64,000 nucleotides of DNA, from assembly GCF_003932855.1 (NCBI RefSeq), contig NZ_RQYZ01000004.1:1-64000 (forward strand), in the 5' to 3' direction. The position numbers and the translations under genes were made by a program. Below are positions 54,065-61,069 of the stretch, piece by piece. How positions within the stretch are numbered: the stretch's first letter is position 1; every line of letters starts with the position of its first letter. The notes beneath the pieces were generated by a model, which worked only from the letters and a program-made list of their open reading frames with translations, ran no database searches and was not told where the DNA came from. This DNA comes from Tessaracoccus sp. OH4464_COT-324 (lineage in GTDB: Bacteria > Actinomycetota > Actinomycetes > Propionibacteriales > Propionibacteriaceae).

Positions 54065-54141
54065 CGGGGTGTGGCGCAGCTTGGTAGCGCGCGTCGTTCG
54101 GGACGACGAGGCCGCAGGTTCAAATCCTGTCACCCCGACCA
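54065..54141 (+). tRNA. tRNA-Pro (anticodon CGG)
   Basis: Full cloverleaf: acceptor CGGGGTG/CACCCCG, D stem GCGC/GCGC, anticodon stem CGTCG/CGACG with loop TTCGGGA (anticodon CGG, reading CCG), T stem GCAGG/CCTGT with TTCAAAT. Discriminator A, and CCA is encoded (54139-54141). It marks the edge of the accessory region to its right. Confidence 0.96.
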
Positions 54142-54154
54142 AAAGTGAAACGTT

Positions 54155-54184
54155 AAAACCTCCGTCCGCAGGGCGGAGGTTTTT
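54155..54184 (+). terminator. Intrinsic terminator of tRNA-Pro
   Basis: AAAACCTCCG (54155-54164) pairs with CGGAGGTTTT (54174-54183) and ends in a T-run; classic bidirectional terminator 13 bases past the tRNA. Confidence 0.88.
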
Positions 54185-54261
54185 CGTGCCTTCAGGAGTT
54201 GGGCTGGTCCAGTTCTGAAACTCCCGCTTCAGGACGGGACTGTCCTAGGTAGGATGCCTAG

Positions 54262-55242
54262 TCAGGTTGTCAGTCTCGTGATCGGTGGTTGCTTTCCGAT
54301 CGCGGAGTGGGGTCTGTAGTGATTGTAGGGGCAGACCCAGCCCGGTAGTGCGGCGAGGCGGTCTGCTTCTGCAGGGTAGAACTTCTTGAAGGCCCAGCCC
54401 TCGGCCAGCGTGCGGTGGAAACGTTCGATCTTCCCGCTGGTCTGAGGCAGATACCGCCTGGCGCGGTTGTGAGTGATACCCAGTTCGACGCAGGCGTCAC
54501 GTCAGAGGCGGGGACCGGTAGCAGCCGCCGCTATCGGTTGACCGTGATGCTGCGGGCAGCGAATCAGGCGAGCGCGCGAACGAGCACGGCGGTCGCGGTG
54601 CGGACGGTCTCGCCCGTGGGCCTCGACGTAAGCGACCAGCGAGTAGCCGTCAATGACGGTGTGCAGGTAGCACCTCTCGACCAGCAGCCGGCAGCAGACA
54701 CTCCTTGGCCGCACCCGTCCGAGCCGACATGGCTACACGGCTACGGAGGCCCCTTGCCCGCACCCGACGTAGCGCCAGCCACCACCATCGGGAATTCTGC
54801 CGAGCTCCCTCACATCCACGCGGAACAACCCGCCGGTCACGCTCGTAATGGCAGATCAGTTCGCCCGTAACACCCTCAACGTGAGTGAAGCGGCTCACAA
54901 CCGGCAACAAACCAGCACCGCCTGACCAGTGGAGCCGGCCATACCCAGCCGGTAGACCATCGCGACTGGCCCCAACCGCAGCCTGACCTCAACTCCACGA
55001 TCCTCTTCACCAGACGGGTCAGGGGTCTCGCCGAGACTGACGCAGGGGCCGCGATGACCTGCCAAACACGCCCGCCGCGTCCTGGCCACGCTAACGTCTC
55101 GACCACTTCTCCGCAGACTTACAGGACACGTCATAACGCCCAGCCACCCGGCTATTGACCAGCCCCCGCTCGACCACGACCCGGGCCAGCCCAGTCGGGT
55201 TCGTGATATCAAAACAGCCTTCGAACGGACAGTGTGAGACAC
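54262..55242 (-). pseudogene. Decayed IS481-family transposase
   Basis: The minus strand holds a full-length but frameshifted IS481 transposase. The start MSHTVRSKAVLISRTRLG (ATG 55242) leads to GRYDVSCKSAEKW (HTH), HYERDRRVVPRGCEGARQ (the RRYERERPGELVHVD region), CYLHTVIDGYSLVAYVEAHG (core strand), GKIERF...LAEGWAF in mixed frames (catalytic Glu) and the C-terminal LPGWVCPYNHYRPHSAIGKQ with PPITRLTT to TGA 54262. Many frame breaks and stops exist. A hairpin lies just upstream of the start (about 55247-55305). The adjoining gap 55306-55460 shows no further gene. Confidence 0.8.
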
Positions 55243-55460
55243 GAAGGCCTCCCCGACGGTGGCGCTGGCTTCTATACAGCCCCAACTCCACCACAGGAGG
55301 CCCTCACCTCACATGCCCACACCACACGAACCACACCAACCCGACCGGACATCACAACTAGCCCTTCCCGATCCGCACAGAGTCCGCAAGGATCTAGAGT
55401 GACGAGTTCGATCCAGCCGTTCGGAGGACCGGTTTCGGACCCCGAGTGCTGCCAACGGTT

Positions 55461-58400
55461 TCAGTCCAGATCTTGGTCCAGTTGGGCTTGTTCGTCCTCA
55501 CGGATGGCATAGCGTTCGTAGGACTCTGCAATGGCGCGCAGAATTCGCGCAGTTCGGGGCCAATGCACCTGGACCGCCAGACCCCACTGCTTGTACTGCT
55601 CAGCCAGCGTTCGCTCCTGGCTGCCGCCGTCGTATACACCACGCCAGGTGACACCGCGGCTGTTCAGTCGGCCGATCATTGCGCCGTTCTCTAGCTGGCG
55701 ACTACCGATCGACTCGATGAGTTCTCGAACTGGAACGGGTGGCCAGATTCCGTCGGCGTCAACTGGAGCGTGAGCAAAGGTTTGGCCAATCAGTTCGTCA
55801 CCGATGTCTGCTCGGTCAAGGTCGGATAGTTGCAGACGAGCCTGCCTAACCCACTCCTGCATCGTAGCTTGATCAAGTGTGCCGTCCTCTTGTCGTCCCG
55901 GGAAGCCGTGCCAGCCGTTAAGGACACGCCAAGCGTGCTCGGCTAGCTGATCCACTCTCTTGCTCTGACGGTGAGATTCGTTTGCACTCCGGAACGCGCG
56001 CTTAACGAGATCAACGAACAGGGCAGGGTTCGAGGAGAGAGCCTGGTTAAGGGCACGTGGTTCGCGGTCGTGCTGGAGGAGCCCGAAATAGTAGAACTCC
56101 AGAGATGCGAGGTCGGCGACTGGCACGTCGGCTGCGGCTAGGTAGTCCAGCAATGTCCCGACGTAGTAGCCGGTCATCTGTGATTTCCTCGCCCGCCCTA
56201 GGTCCTGGGTGATCGCCGCGCGCAAGACGGATAGGAGCAGCGCTGCGCTCGGGAGACGCTTCTTCTGGTCCACTGTCGGCTCGAAGATGCCGTGGCTCGC
56301 GATCGCAATCGCCGACCAAGCTCGTGCTCGTTCGAGGAGCGCCTCGATAGCACTGACAAGATCTTCATAGGGAACTACATCGAAAGGCGCCTCGGACCAG
56401 AAGAGCTCTTCAGCGGCTGGGAACTCGCGGAGAACCTCCCAGAACCGGCTTTCCGTCGGGACATTAAGCACCAACCTTCTCAGGGCCTCGCCCCCTAGGT
56501 TGCCCCGTTCGAGCGCTCGCCTGAGATCCGCTGGTCCATTGACAGCGAGATGGCTACGGGCCCAGGTTGTCGCGGCTTCCTGAAGCGCTGTGTTATTCGA
56601 TGACAGCCAGTCCAGCATGGTGTCGAGAGCATCAATCGGCTCATAGGTTGACAGAGTCCGGCCGACTTCTGCCGGAGCCTCGGCACGGGCCGTTAGCGCG
56701 CCGAGCTGTTCCCACGCGTCATGGCGGGCGAAGAGAAGGTCAAATGTTTCGCGCCGTTTGGCTTCCAGCGCTGTCTGGTAGCGCTCGTAGTCATTCGAGT
56801 CTGCACCCGACAGGTACGAGCGCCAATCAAAGAGATATGCGAACCGGCGGAGGTCATCAGCAGGTTGGAGAAATTCGGCTAGTTTGTGTAAGCGGACGCA
56901 TCGCTCCGCCGGCATTGCCCAGTCCGCGTCCTGAAAACGCTCGTGCCGCGCCGCGGTCTCTCGGGCCTGTTCGAACAGAGCCAGCCGAACGTCATCATCC
57001 AAGTCGCCGCGCGATGCCTCGCCCTCGAGGAACTCGATGATCCGATTCGCTTCATCCGGGCCAACCGTGGACAGTGCTTCCGCAAGCCACGGCAAGGCCG
57101 TGCGATCATCTGTGCCCCATTCGATAGCTCGGTCGACCATACTTTTCACGAAAGCAACCCATTCGTTGATCGACATCTGGTCATTTGAGGACTTCCAGAG
57201 GCGATAACGCGGCTCATGGGGTGGCGAAACCGAGGTGTTCCTGTCAGGCCACAAGGCCTTGAGTAATGCCCACCCTATCGTCTCGCTCACGGCCCGGCAG
57301 GCATCGATCGCTCCGAGTCGGGTCTCAAGATCTGCTCCGGTGTTCCGAATCCATCCGCAGAGGACGGTGGACATGCTCACGAAGGGCGTGTTACCCGAGT
57401 TCTTCGGCAGTTCGTAACGGCAAAGTCTGGCCAGGATCTGTGTTGCGCGAACGAGGTGGTCGGGCGACCAGCAGAGCCCTTCCAAGGCCCACAACAGGTG
57501 ATGCTGTTGACCCGAAGGCCACAGCGTCAGCGCGTTGTCAATGGCTTGGAACAAGCGGCCGACGGTCGGATCGCTGGTTGCAAGGTCATCCTCCAGTGCA
57601 GAAAGGAAGGTGTCCGGAGCGGCCTCGGCAAGAAGCGGAAGCACGTCAGCGATCGCTCCCCAAGTGTGGCCCTCGGAGCCGGTCGTGACCTGACGCAGCA
57701 CGTCGCGCACAACCCGTTCGGCCACTGAGGACAGGAGATTAGTGTCGCCGGGGCATGACTCGATCGATCCCGCCAGGGCGAGGCTCTCGGCGATACCGCG
57801 CCGCAGCTCAGGCGAGTAGGTTCTTCGCTCCCCCTTCGATTGGGCGACGATCTGCTCGTGCGAACTGAGGCCTTCATATGGATCCGGGTCCAGGAGAACG
57901 CTGGTTGCGATCTCCGCCCACCGCGATGCCAGTTCTGTTGACGTCAGGTTGCCAAGCTCCAGGAACGCCTCCTCCAGGGACGTGAATACGAAGACATTCC
58001 GCACGCTCCGGATCGCCGGATCTGATCCGCGACTGGCATCGGCGATGGCGCACTGTAGGTCGGCTAAGGAGATGGCAGCCAGTTCACTCAGGACTCGCAG
58101 GTCCTCGGGTTGATCGGTCCACCGACTGGCCAGCATCAGTGCGGCGAGCGTACCGGCCAACGGTGTCCGAGACCACGTTGGCTGCTGCACGCGAGGTGAG
58201 CGCGAAAGCCGTCGGACCAATGCGGGCATGCTCCGACGAGCAAGTACCGCGAGGTGATCGGCTTGGCACCAATCGACGTCGTCTGCTCTGAATGCCTCGG
58301 CCGCCTCATTCCGGCCAACCCTCGGCAGTCGGATGTCGACACTGCGGCGCATGGCAGAGTCACTATCGACGATAGATACGACATGCCTACCACTAGCGAG

Positions 58401-59438
58401 GGCGCGGGCTACATCTGCATTGTCGAATTCGGGCACCAAGATCCCAGGCCCTGGGAGTGTCACTATTCGGTCCCAGACGTCTGCCGAGCGGACGATTGTG
58501 ACGGCGCCGGGTTCGCTCGACTCATCGTCGTCTGGTGTGAGGCACGCGTGCAGGAACCCTAAGGCGTCGTTGATCCACTCGGTCTGGATCGACGTAATTC
58601 TCGGCTCGCCACTAAGCAGAGAGCGTAGTTGCTGCGTCTCCTTAGTTCTCCCTGCGACGAAAAGATTCAGCGGAAGAGCCGGTTCGGTTGCAGCGGAGAA
58701 GCGGTCCCACCATGTCTCCAGGGTCAGCGCGTCCCGAGGCCGAAGACCGAGAGTTTCCGAGATCCACAGGTGTGCGGCGGGCGCAACCTGCAGCCAAGCT
58801 TCGAGGTCATCCGCATCAAGAACGAGGACATCCCTGAAGAATTTCTCGGCTCGTCGCTCGGCGGCCCACGAGTCTTTGCCCTGCCATCGACGGACTGTCA
58901 CGAAGACGAAGGTGACATCTTGCGATGCCTCGCCCTTTCTTCCGTCGTAGTCCTTGGTGGCTTTGCCCTTGGAATCCTTGTCGGTGCCGAGCTCGAACCA
59001 GATTTGTCCGGCGGGCAGCAAGAGCGTTTGCCTCTCAAGGGTCGCGACCCCGTCCTTGCCGGCCAGAGCAACTCCGTCACCTGTCCGAAACGAGATCTGG
59101 CCAGCACCGGGAGTCTCGAACAACAGCCTACGCACCAACTCTGGAAGCCGATCCTGAGCTTCTCGAGCGTTGATCTGTGGCCACAGCGCGAGCCGGCTCG
59201 CAGTCGCATACTCGGGACTGGCGGTTCGTCGTTCGGCAGACAGGCTCACGGCCGGCGCTCCGCGCTGCGCTTTGAGACGCTCCACGTCGCTCGCACGGAA
59301 CCTGTAAAACGACGTCCCCGGCAACCGCGCATCCGGTAGTAATCCTTTCTTTGCATACGCCCGCACGGTGTTCTCGTGCACGGCCAGTCGCCTGGCTGTC
59401 TCACGCACACTCAGGAACTCAGAAGCAGCATCATCCAT
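55461..59438 (-). CDS. Giant HTH - nuclease-like - degenerate STAND-like protein (putative defence protein)
   Basis: This 1325-residue protein has four visible parts. Residues 6-58 are an excisionase/MerR-type HTH (FLSVRETARRLAVHENTVRA then FYRFRASDVERLKAQR). Residues 85-225 look like a restriction-endonuclease-like domain: GDGVALAGKDGVATLE, LLPAGQIWFELGTDKD, then TFVFVTVRRWQGKDSWAAE and DADDLEAWL; candidate catalytic residues are Asp129 and Glu149. At about 259-300 a STAND/NACHT entry motif FVAGRTKETQQLRSLLSG occurs, but where Walker A should be I read RITSIQTEWINDALGFLHAC, without a P-loop. From about 430 to the end it is a long helical-repeat region (ARM/TPR-like sensor). I chose ATG 59438 because the HTH begins there; 36 further in-frame residues upstream are atypical. 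Base composition is less GC-rich than the neighbours. Function is inference. Confidence 0.55.
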   Translation of the reverse strand: MDDAASEFLSVRETARRLAVHENTVRAYAKKGLLPDARLPGTSFYRFRASDVERLKAQRGAPAVSLSAERRTASPEYATASRLALWPQINAREAQDRLPELVRRLLFETPGAGQISFRTGDGVALAGKDGVATLERQTLLLPAGQIWFELGTDKDSKGKATKDYDGRKGEASQDVTFVFVTVRRWQGKDSWAAERRAEKFFRDVLVLDADDLEAWLQVAPAAHLWISETLGLRPRDALTLETWWDRFSAATEPALPLNLFVAGRTKETQQLRSLLSGEPRITSIQTEWINDALGFLHACLTPDDDESSEPGAVTIVRSADVWDRIVTLPGPGILVPEFDNADVARALASGRHVVSIVDSDSAMRRSVDIRLPRVGRNEAAEAFRADDVDWCQADHLAVLARRSMPALVRRLSRSPRVQQPTWSRTPLAGTLAALMLASRWTDQPEDLRVLSELAAISLADLQCAIADASRGSDPAIRSVRNVFVFTSLEEAFLELGNLTSTELASRWAEIATSVLLDPDPYEGLSSHEQIVAQSKGERRTYSPELRRGIAESLALAGSIESCPGDTNLLSSVAERVVRDVLRQVTTGSEGHTWGAIADVLPLLAEAAPDTFLSALEDDLATSDPTVGRLFQAIDNALTLWPSGQQHHLLWALEGLCWSPDHLVRATQILARLCRYELPKNSGNTPFVSMSTVLCGWIRNTGADLETRLGAIDACRAVSETIGWALLKALWPDRNTSVSPPHEPRYRLWKSSNDQMSINEWVAFVKSMVDRAIEWGTDDRTALPWLAEALSTVGPDEANRIIEFLEGEASRGDLDDDVRLALFEQARETAARHERFQDADWAMPAERCVRLHKLAEFLQPADDLRRFAYLFDWRSYLSGADSNDYERYQTALEAKRRETFDLLFARHDAWEQLGALTARAEAPAEVGRTLSTYEPIDALDTMLDWLSSNNTALQEAATTWARSHLAVNGPADLRRALERGNLGGEALRRLVLNVPTESRFWEVLREFPAAEELFWSEAPFDVVPYEDLVSAIEALLERARAWSAIAIASHGIFEPTVDQKKRLPSAALLLSVLRAAITQDLGRARKSQMTGYYVGTLLDYLAAADVPVADLASLEFYYFGLLQHDREPRALNQALSSNPALFVDLVKRAFRSANESHRQSKRVDQLAEHAWRVLNGWHGFPGRQEDGTLDQATMQEWVRQARLQLSDLDRADIGDELIGQTFAHAPVDADGIWPPVPVRELIESIGSRQLENGAMIGRLNSRGVTWRGVYDGGSQERTLAEQYKQWGLAVQVHWPRTARILRAIAESYERYAIREDEQAQLDQDLD

Positions 59439-59520
59439 ACCAACAGCATACCTGATTGTAGACTTTGTGCACTTGAAGGCGACGGGCTTGGTGTAGAAAA
59501 GCAGAGGCTGAGGAGCAGAC

Positions 59521-59577
59521 ATGGATCCGGTGAGCGACGCGATCAACCCGCTGTGCTGTGCTGCTGATGTCGGTTGA
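59521..59577 (+). pseudogene. Leader of a lost ArsR-type regulator gene
   Basis: After a strong site GAGGAG (59508-59513) an ATG opens MDPVSDAINPLCCAADVG and then stops. The pattern M..V...I.PLCCA is typical of the N-terminus of some metal-sensing ArsR regulators, where the Cys pair helps bind metal. The HTH that should follow is missing; the next 15 bases run into the end of the aph gene on the other strand. Probably a truncated gene left by a deletion. Confidence 0.35.
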
Positions 59578-59592
59578 GGTCAAGCAGCTTGA

Positions 59593-60513
59593 TCATTGAT
59601 CTATGAACATCGCCCCCGCAATGTCCCAAGAAACTTCCGCTTGAGTCTCGTAGCCGTTCTCGTGACACCACATCGCGTCATCCACGCTGCGCACGAGACA
59701 CCACCAGCGCACGGTTGATGGCTCCAGCTCGGCCTTCTCGGCGAAGCGTTCCAGCCGATGCAGTACCGTGGCATTCGTGTCGTCACCGCCCCGGAATTCG
59801 CTCCAGCGGTTGCGCAGCAGTGGAACCACCTCAAACGCGGCATCGCCTTTCAGCGGCTTCGGGTCGATGACTGCCCACGCATCCTCACCGCGGCCGAGGA
59901 TGTTGGCGTAATGGAAATCGCCGTGCAGCAGCGAGGGCTCCGACGGTAGGGCGGCCAGCTCTGCGCACAAATCGATGGCCGCGGAGACGAGCTTCTCGGG
60001 GCACGGTTTGCCGAGCCGCCGCCAGTCCTCGCGGAACTCCACACCCCACCGAGCAGCGATGTCGCCGACGCTGCGCAGCCCAGCGGGCGCAGGGACGCGC
60101 AGCTCACGAAGGAGATTGGCGGCAACGTCGAGCGCTTCCTGAATCGGGGCGTCCAGCAGGACCCGCCGTTCATCCAGCCGCTCCAGCAGCATGGCGCCGG
60201 CCCCTTCGTCGGCGCGCAGCACCGAGACTGCCCCATGACCGCCCCACTCGCGTAACGCAACGGGTTCGAGCCGAGTCTCATCATCGAGCCAACTCACCTT
60301 CAAAGCGCTGCGCTGCCCGTCTTCGCAACGGACAGGCAGAACCACGGCGCACATCCCGTACATCGGCGGCCCCTCCCGACGAAGGCACCACCTGTCGAGC
60401 AAGCTCTCCACAGTGCAAGGCAACGCCTCCAACCATTCTCGGGCGGCCTCCCCCTCCCTGCCCAGGATCGTGGCAGAAAAGTCAGCTGATACGTGAACCA
60501 CTTCTACTCTCAC
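59593..60513 (-). CDS. APH(6)/hydroxyurea-phosphotransferase-type aminoglycoside kinase
   Basis: The 306-residue kinase belongs to the APH_6_hur family, which includes streptomycin 6-phosphotransferases. Visible are ALKVSWLDDETRLEPVAL (Lys of the ATP site), AMLLERLDERRVL, the Brenner motif SLLHGDFHYANILGRGEDAW (catalytic Asp) and VIDPKPLKGDAAFEVVPLLR (metal-binding Asp-Pro-Lys pattern characteristic of the family). Which drug it phosphorylates, if any, cannot be told; streptomycin-type is the best guess. It is upstream of, and in the same direction as, the giant putative defence gene, 155 bases away. Confidence 0.85.
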   Translation of the reverse strand: MRVEVVHVSADFSATILGREGEAAREWLEALPCTVESLLDRWCLRREGPPMYGMCAVVLPVRCEDGQRSALKVSWLDDETRLEPVALREWGGHGAVSVLRADEGAGAMLLERLDERRVLLDAPIQEALDVAANLLRELRVPAPAGLRSVGDIAARWGVEFREDWRRLGKPCPEKLVSAAIDLCAELAALPSEPSLLHGDFHYANILGRGEDAWAVIDPKPLKGDAAFEVVPLLRNRWSEFRGGDDTNATVLHRLERFAEKAELEPSTVRWWCLVRSVDDAMWCHENGYETQAEVSWDIAGAMFIDQ

Positions 60514-61069
60514 ATTCTGGTGCGGTTGAGGGCAATGCTACCGCTCAGGAGATCAGCAAAGCGGTCGATAGTGAATTGGCTAGGGGTTTTGTCTGCCAGG
60601 AGACGTTGTCAGTGGGATGAAGTGGGCTGGGTAGCGCGTCAGTGATCAGCTGTGCTCTAGGTCTAGCCGCTTCCCCAAGATGGCAGGATTCTGGAGCCTG
60701 TTAGGTAGCCTGGCAGAGCTAGTTTGGATGCAGGACAGCAAAGGGCCGGAAGAAGGCTCCCTGCGCAGACAGTAACCGATTATGTTTTTGGAGGGGCACC
60801 CTGACAGCTATCCGCATCAGCGACGATCGGGCGCGCAGGCCCCGGACAAGTTTGCCTTCCCACTGGTCGATAGCTACCACCGTTGCAGACACCAGTCAAT
60901 CGCTGGGCGGGTGTTCGGGTCCACGATCCGCCCGTGCTCGAATCGCCGGCTGATGAACTGGCCGACGAAGGTCCGGCTCGCACCGTCGGCTCCAGCGCCC
61001 CGCGAGCCGGCGCTCCCGGCCCACTGGAGCCCATCCCTGAGCAACGCCCCGCCCTCAGCGGATGTCGGC
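60514..61069. other. 556-bp stretch without an established gene
   Basis: Between the aph start and pabC. The left part (60520-60780) is AT-richer and shows no frame. The right part contains a minus-strand frame with strong GC3 bias (see next entry). No tRNA, hairpin or repeat stands out. Confidence 0.5.
60874..61044 (-). CDS. Short frame or 3' gene remnant, 56 codons
   Basis: The minus-strand frame ends at TAG 60874-60876 and reads ...ASRTFVGQFISRRFEHGRIV then DPNTRPAIDWCLQRW. Third codon positions over the last 35 codons are nearly all G or C, as in the real genes nearby. No ATG precedes it; TTG 61044 is the first plausible start, and the frame is closed by a stop a few codons before. I do not recognise it; it may be the tail of a deleted gene. 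Confidence 0.25.
   Translation of the reverse strand: MLRDGLQWAGSAGSRGAGADGASRTFVGQFISRRFEHGRIVDPNTRPAIDWCLQRW

Follow-up and report, generated by a model that had tools for sequence, protein, structure and literature searches.

Positions 55461 to 59438 of the window, the 64,000-nucleotide stretch of Tessaracoccus sp. OH4464_COT-324 analysed here, hold on the minus strand a single gene whose 1325-residue product joins a helix-turn-helix (HTH) domain, a PD-(D/E)xK-like nuclease, a pseudo-STAND module and a long alpha-solenoid. We consider it probable that this protein is an autoregulated one-gene system directed against phages or other mobile elements, which would act in the manner of NLR and Avs proteins with the nucleotide switch disabled. 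The open reading frame (ORF) is intact, running from an ATG at 59438 to a stop codon at 55461-55463 without internal stops, and is corroborated by full-length homologues. Chance is excluded as its origin, because a full-length homologue is 38% identical (E 6e-247) and because relatives turn up in 260 of 272 pattern stretches from a genome collection. A sequence-only reading of this DNA had described a 1325-residue ORF, naming no strand, as a candidate defence gene in which a DNA-binding HTH is fused to an effector and an NTPase-dead STAND relative. Its interpretation proved essentially right: the ORF exists, all the motifs it quoted are found in the protein, and the three outcomes it had named as refuting, on the nuclease core, the neighbours of homologues and their distribution, were not observed.

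The N-terminal HTH (residues 8-59; 59262-59417, minus strand) is of the expected MerR/excisionase/BldC-like type, as indicated by Pfam HTH_17 (E 2.5e-8) and MerR_1 (E 2.3e-6). The NCBIfam model HTH_BldC matches it below threshold (E 3.3e-4; 20.4 bits versus a cut-off of 77), and no NCBIfam model scores above its cut-off anywhere in the 1325-residue protein. The ~1250 residues beyond the HTH have no above-cut-off match in Pfam, PADLOC or NCBIfam; up to E 1, none of the PADLOC 2023 models covers more than the HTH, and PDB sequence searches gave no usable match. Assignment to MADS was considered and rejected, as the PADLOC mad1 match (E 3.6e-9) covers the HTH alone (residues 6-61) and the MAD1 equivalog NF047737 reaches 14.6 bits versus 80.

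A predicted nuclease with invariant acidic residues

As judged from an AlphaFold2 model (predicted local distance difference test score, pLDDT, 92.7), residues ~73-231 adopt a PD-(D/E)xK fold, which places a nuclease core where the sequence-only reading had suspected one (residues 85-225). The domain, mapped at about residues 80-231 (58746-59201, minus strand), has structural matches to FokI, MspJI (the best, with AspBHI) and VC1899. Asp129 (codon 59052-59054, minus strand), Gly130 and Glu149 (58992-58994, minus strand) are invariant in all 83 distinct rows of the family alignment; the two acids, whose conservation had been put forward as a check and which are putatively catalytic, are also kept in all 96 rows of the set that includes duplicates. 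Lys159 (58962-58964, minus strand) is present in 81 of the 83 distinct rows. According to the secondary structure it sits in the helix after the third strand, outside the canonical ExK spacing, and it may represent the catalytic lysine, shifted from its usual position. The domain hence displays the core fold and the conserved D, D/E and K of the PD-(D/E)xK group, with a non-canonical lysine spacing. In contrast to the PD-(D/E)xK cleavage domains of FokI and MspJI, its best matches, the lysine is displaced to the following helix and the nuclease is fused to a pseudo-STAND module and a solenoid. Predicted fold and conserved residues together suggest that the domain would cleave DNA.

A predicted STAND fold without Walker A

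In the same model, residues ~239-520 (57879-58724, minus strand) form a STAND fold made of a P-loop Rossmann core and a winged helix, which VIA-align superimposes on Dark, CED-4 and Avs5; this fold spans the region (residues 255-430) proposed earlier for a fold check. None of the 83 family rows contains the Walker A pattern GxxxxGK[ST] across residues 62-520, and in the window protein none follows the STAND entry motif FVAGRTKETQQLRSLLSG, just as had been noticed from the letters. One row of the 83 has a lone GK[ST] close to where it would be expected, and five have the Walker B pattern hhhD[DE] within the expected stretch; no Walker B was seen in the aligned row of the window protein. Fold and missing Walker A both support the description as an NTPase-dead relative of STAND, and the best reading of the model is that of a STAND scaffold whose nucleotide switch would be disabled.

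With its N-terminal effector, STAND fold and C-terminal repeats, the protein has the same domain order as Avs5 and Avs2, and Avs5 structures are among its matches. Two features set it apart from Avs: an extra N-terminal HTH with a putative operator, and the lack of Walker A in all 83 rows, whereas the Walker A residues are essential in PaAvs5 (PMC12931631). Because the defining NTPase test failed, we do not file the protein as a STAND NTPase, despite its presumed Avs- or NLR-like working. A distant match (L148:1383-5177) carries a PD-(D/E)xK-like N-terminus, by motif reading, an apparently intact Walker A (GEAGLGKT) and a weakly matching helical region thereafter; it possibly represents the ancestor type with a nucleotide switch.

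The remainder of the protein, residues 521-1325 (55464-57878, minus strand), had been described as helical-repeat-like. In a model of residues 425-1325 (pLDDT 91.8) it forms an alpha-solenoid with HEAT/ARM-like fold matches, and we presume it to be the sensor. Near its end lies the signature N-x-RGV...GG.QER...Y (residues 1259-1311; 55506-55664, minus strand), the columns of which are invariant or near-invariant in a 10-row and an 80-row alignment.

A C-terminal module shared with GAPS6

Residues 511-1308 are homologous to the product of the gene that follows gapS6a in Escherichia coli and Buttiauxella (BLASTP, 24% identity over 825 aligned positions, E 3e-51), GapS6a itself being identified by NF047935 and Pfam HetE-N. 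We take GAPS6 to be phage-protective, as the NCBIfam name 'antiphage_GapS6a' indicates. A phmmer comparison of the L115 GapS6a with frames of at least 40 residues from 97 sources matched L115 and L024 only, and no GapS6a-like frame was found in the window. The protein accordingly shares the module with GAPS6 and lacks the GapS6a (HetE-N) partner. In GAPS6, HetE-N is a separate protein and the partner has neither the nuclease nor the greater part of the pseudo-STAND module, whereas here both are fused to the solenoid, together with an HTH. The claim that the system is undescribed has to be qualified, as the C-terminal module is common to the gene next to gapS6a.

The module is also joined to other N-termini. 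In L107, L108, L119 and L138 it follows a different nuclease-like region of ~290 residues with STGGGGxxFE...DTDD...QxKxS-like motifs, possibly a nuclease, which Pfam does not recognise; the single Pfam match of L107 (E 0.068) is below cut-off. To us this region recalls DUF4297/Cap4 nucleases, an assumption that finds no support in Pfam (L107, L108, L119, L151) or PADLOC (L107, L108). In a further genome of the window's phylum, the same module is fused to SLFN_AlbA_2 (L150:3262-6480, minus strand; Pfam E 3.1e-9). For the GapS6 partners, these four loci and L150, the N-terminal profile is matched from about its last quarter onwards only, and they therefore lack the larger part of the pseudo-STAND module. 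In an 86-row tree, rooted by midpoint only, one group unites the GapS6 partners with the second nuclease type (SH-aLRT, Shimodaira-Hasegawa approximate likelihood-ratio test, 99); it nests within a larger group of 21 rows, to which nuclease/pseudo-STAND members also belong. Most simply, the combination of nuclease and pseudo-STAND would be the older state within the 21-row group and would later have been replaced.

HTH classes and putative operators

By regular expression, 85 loci were sorted into HigA (22), MerR (8) and XRE-short (6) classes, with none of the three HTH types recognised at 49; the class changes between clades. Members with a MerR/BldC-type HTH, including the window protein, have upstream the direct repeat CACAAAGTCYACAAT of 9-bp period, which is present at 9 of 10 distinct MerR-class loci (10 of 11 scanned) and absent at L033. 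The window copy, the putative operator CACAAAGTCTACAAT (59455-59469, minus strand), was recognised by upstream comparison of MerR-class loci and lies 16 nt before the ATG. It is the only mismatch-free site in the 2.76-Mb genome, where two more sites have 2 mismatches; a reversed-pattern control returned two sites. Between operator and gene, a -10-like TATGCT (59445-59450, minus strand) can be read off the sequence 6 bases 5' of the ATG, so close that it would suggest a leaderless transcript. BldC likewise combines a short MerR-like HTH with a 9-bp period, binding direct repeats of the unit AATTXXXX(C) head to tail (PMC5859096); in contrast to BldC, the HTH here is part of a 1325-residue protein.

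Upstream of the HigA-type genes a GTGTnnCnnnACAC-like palindrome is found at 20 of 22 loci and at none of the 63 others (0 of 8 MerR-class, 0 of 6 XRE-short, 0 of 49 unclassified), and the XRE-short group has a common TGANGTCATA-like element, recognised by eye in three distinct sequences. The type of putative operator follows the HTH class. Shared DNA was compared by blastn in six pairs of relatives, one of which gave no match. Between L029 and its relatives L027 and L032 from other genera (94-95%), the shared block over the gene begins exactly at the first base of the operator and extends 33 bp beyond the frame. Its start lies 19 bp before that base in L029/L031 and 31 bp before it in L026/L028 (one genus); L029/L030 have 12.3 kb in common. 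Since such blocks begin at or near the operator, the gene seems to travel with it. The proposal that the protein could regulate its own synthesis has gained support from these class-matched operators, and the HTH may repress its own promoter.

Distribution of the family

The family, of which the best 80 of the 260 relatives from the pattern search were kept, extends over many phyla and one archaeal metagenome-assembled genome. Its distribution is patchy and accessory. Within the genus, 35 other genomes yielded a single full copy (G011), one broken copy (G004) and one weak partial match (G031). When the Enterobacter gene serves as query, matches appear in 10 of 5,426 E. coli genomes, four of which are HS or LAM_HS records; homologues are not fixed in core genomes. 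The broken copy (G004:C1:1922017-1925747) is in two pieces and contains one in-frame TGA. Copies split into two frames also occur at L060 (Ktedonobacter racemifer) and L138 (genome G400); L002 and L029 are one locus (Tessaracoccus caeni). The window protein matches 12 of 296 genomes of its own phylum, nine of these by a short N-terminal or weak stretch alone. At E 1e-3, the C-terminal profile detects the family in 13 of 398 genomes from one phylum and in 5 of 346 from the window's phylum, counts that take in the centre genomes as well as a few weak matches.

Plasmid records match in 22 of 72,556 cases, with 80% or more of the query covered in 7, and copies are also located on large contigs, presumably chromosomal, beside defence genes. 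One of 50,697 phage records matches the window protein, and none of them matches the gapS6a partner protein. The family is not named in the titles or abstract openings listed in the literature searches; by text search, GAPS is not mentioned in PMC12137116. The DefensePredictor study validated 13 systems with PD-(D/E)XK domains (PMC13092281), and a relative of the present family may be among them.

Defence genes beside relatives

Neighbours were compared with PADLOC models (E <=1e-10) using 133 ORFs within 5 kb on each side of the gene at 22 loci. They come from a set of 144 ORFs at 24 loci, less those of L028 and L030; the 24 had been picked from 42 loci flanked by 5 kb or more on either side, the criterion being a contig of sufficient length to supply a control region. 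The control comprised 139 of 172 ORFs from 24 same-contig regions away from the gene and excluded the regions L153, L155, L157, L168, L169 and L173, one 1576-residue ORF of L154 and the final ORF of L175; the pairing of the two sets is therefore incomplete, with too small a share of large genes in the control. Among the best 25 of 102 families matched by neighbours are Avs2 (two proteins, best E 9e-262), OloA, OloB, DarT, DarG, LmuA, LmuC, AbiD, Old, AriA, AbiTii, PD-T4-6, GajA, mad6 and several PDC models, where we take Olo to mean Olokun, Lmu Lamassu and AriA PARIS. The best 25 of 77 control families include mad2, mad3, mad8, UvrD-like GajB models, RTasHel (E 2.5e-103) and HEC-01A, models that we judge to be generic; one helicase can match many models.

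In three actinobacterial genera (L029:14193-18359, L030:14208-18374, L032:14229-18461), the family gene is directly followed by a gene for ~1,390-1,410 residues with a NACHT match, two of the three matches being below the Pfam cut-off; those downstream of L029 and L032 appear to be the two Avs2 hits. Of eight annotated plasmid loci inspected for this architecture (a ninth carried no annotation and is outside this count), four have clear defence genes: type I restriction at one, reverse transcriptase-domain and Shedu-domain genes at another, Abi, SIR2, RES and AbiEii at a third and AbiEi/AbiEii at the fourth. None was seen at the other four. L119, of the second nuclease type, adjoins Abi and SieB genes. 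The association of homologues with defence genes, which had been put forward as a check, is observed.

The E. coli HS relative (L113:17780-23756) has a HigA-type HTH (TIGR02607, E 8e-18) and, up to E 0.1, PADLOC matches in the HTH alone. It belongs to an integrated element beside guaA, with integrase, repA and trb genes, and comes immediately after genes for a PIN_12-domain and a HigA-domain protein, of which the PIN gene may belong to the system.

An accessory island at tRNA-Pro

The window copy lies in a ~6.9-kb accessory island (54143-61066), delimited by flank comparison with relatives, at the 3' end of tRNA-Pro(CGG) (54065-54141, plus strand; ARAGORN and empty-site comparison), the tRNA that had been placed next to the gene. 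The island flanks are ~6.93 kb apart here and 466, 102 and 254 bp apart in three same-genus relatives. No direct repeat bounding the island was reported, and an Rfam scan found the tRNA alone. Degenerate repeat debris at about 54243-55361, probably insertion-sequence remains and putatively of IS481, had likewise been noticed beforehand; its pieces match other places of the same genome in several copies, most at 85-91%. The lower guanine-plus-cytosine content of the gene also holds, at 61.2% versus 68.3% for the window outside the island. The island further contains an APH(6)-like kinase gene (59593-60513, minus strand; Pfam APH_6_hur, E 6e-38, below NCBIfam cut-offs), and similar DNA (76-84%) is present in five other genomes of the genus. 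No system-specific PADLOC neighbour of the gene was found elsewhere in the 64-kb window.

Discussion

We favour defence as the function because the folds occur together in one model with invariant Asp129, Gly130 and Glu149, a Walker A count of zero, an alpha-solenoid and a patchy plasmid and island distribution; because known defence models lie near relatives, the sensor is homologous to the gapS6a partner and its module is joined to other effector-like domains; and because operator class follows HTH class, with two of five matching pairs sharing DNA from the operator start. In the mechanism that we propose, the HTH would bind the direct repeat that lies 16 nt before the ATG of its gene and keep synthesis low. 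The alpha-solenoid would recognise an invader component; this binding would rearrange the pseudo-STAND module, serving as a nucleotide-independent scaffold or oligomerisation surface, and the PD-(D/E)xK domains, brought together as in FokI, might then cut DNA and stop the invader or the infected cell.

Several features would also suit a giant toxin-antitoxin or addiction protein, in which the HTH is a fused antitoxin, the nuclease a toxin and the role plasmid maintenance. Annotation pipelines suggest 'HigA family addiction module antitoxin', the HTH of the E. coli HS relative is of HigA type, the palindromes at 20 of 22 HigA-class loci are reminiscent of toxin-antitoxin promoters, and copies reside on plasmids. 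A dedicated antitoxin would, however, hardly be missing, as the three HTH types are, from 49 of 85 loci or vary in class by clade; a solenoid of 800-900 residues exceeds the needs of an addiction toxin, and copies on presumably chromosomal contigs stand beside defence genes. We regard this alternative as unlikely. Equally doubtful is a restriction-like nuclease, type IV or anti-plasmid, that reads modified or foreign DNA directly through HTH and solenoid instead of sensing a protein. The best nuclease matches (FokI, MspJI and AspBHI), the ability of HTHs to read DNA and the plasmid copies are in keeping with such an enzyme, but the HTH varies in type and is often absent, and the solenoid resembles HEAT/ARM scaffolds, many of which bind proteins. 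To our knowledge, moreover, neither FokI nor MspJI has a STAND-like module.

An HTH on a STAND fold, along with class-matched operators, could instead denote a transcription factor such as MalT or AfsR, which are of the STAND type, with the nuclease-like domain as an inactive relic. Asp129 and Glu149 are invariant and Lys159 nearly so, unlike in a relic, the HTH is dispensable, the genome has no perfect site besides that of the gene itself, and related sensors pair with other effector-like domains; this explanation seems to us very improbable.

The proposed defence function may extend to a broader group. With about even confidence, we suggest that a widespread class of NLR-like receptors does without the nucleotide switch, combining one sensor solenoid, whose STAND module is dead or mostly missing, with interchangeable effectors: the FokI-like nuclease, the second nuclease-like domain, Schlafen/AlbA_2 or a separate HetE-N partner. 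Its one-gene form would carry its own repressor and operator and move between genera as a ~4-kb cassette. The Avs- or NLR-like order and the sensor shared with GAPS6 are the known part of this design; what sets the present protein apart is the lack of Walker A and of a GapS6a partner, and the fused HTH with its putative operator. Given this fused HTH and operators matched to HTH class, the protein is a clear candidate for a self-repressing immune effector. STAND and NLR immunity is usually explained by nucleotide exchange that drives oligomerisation. That a large family keeps the STAND fold with Walker A absent from 83 of 83 rows raises the question of whether NLR-like receptors may signal without ATP, a question sharpened by sensor relatives that have dropped most of the pseudo-STAND module.

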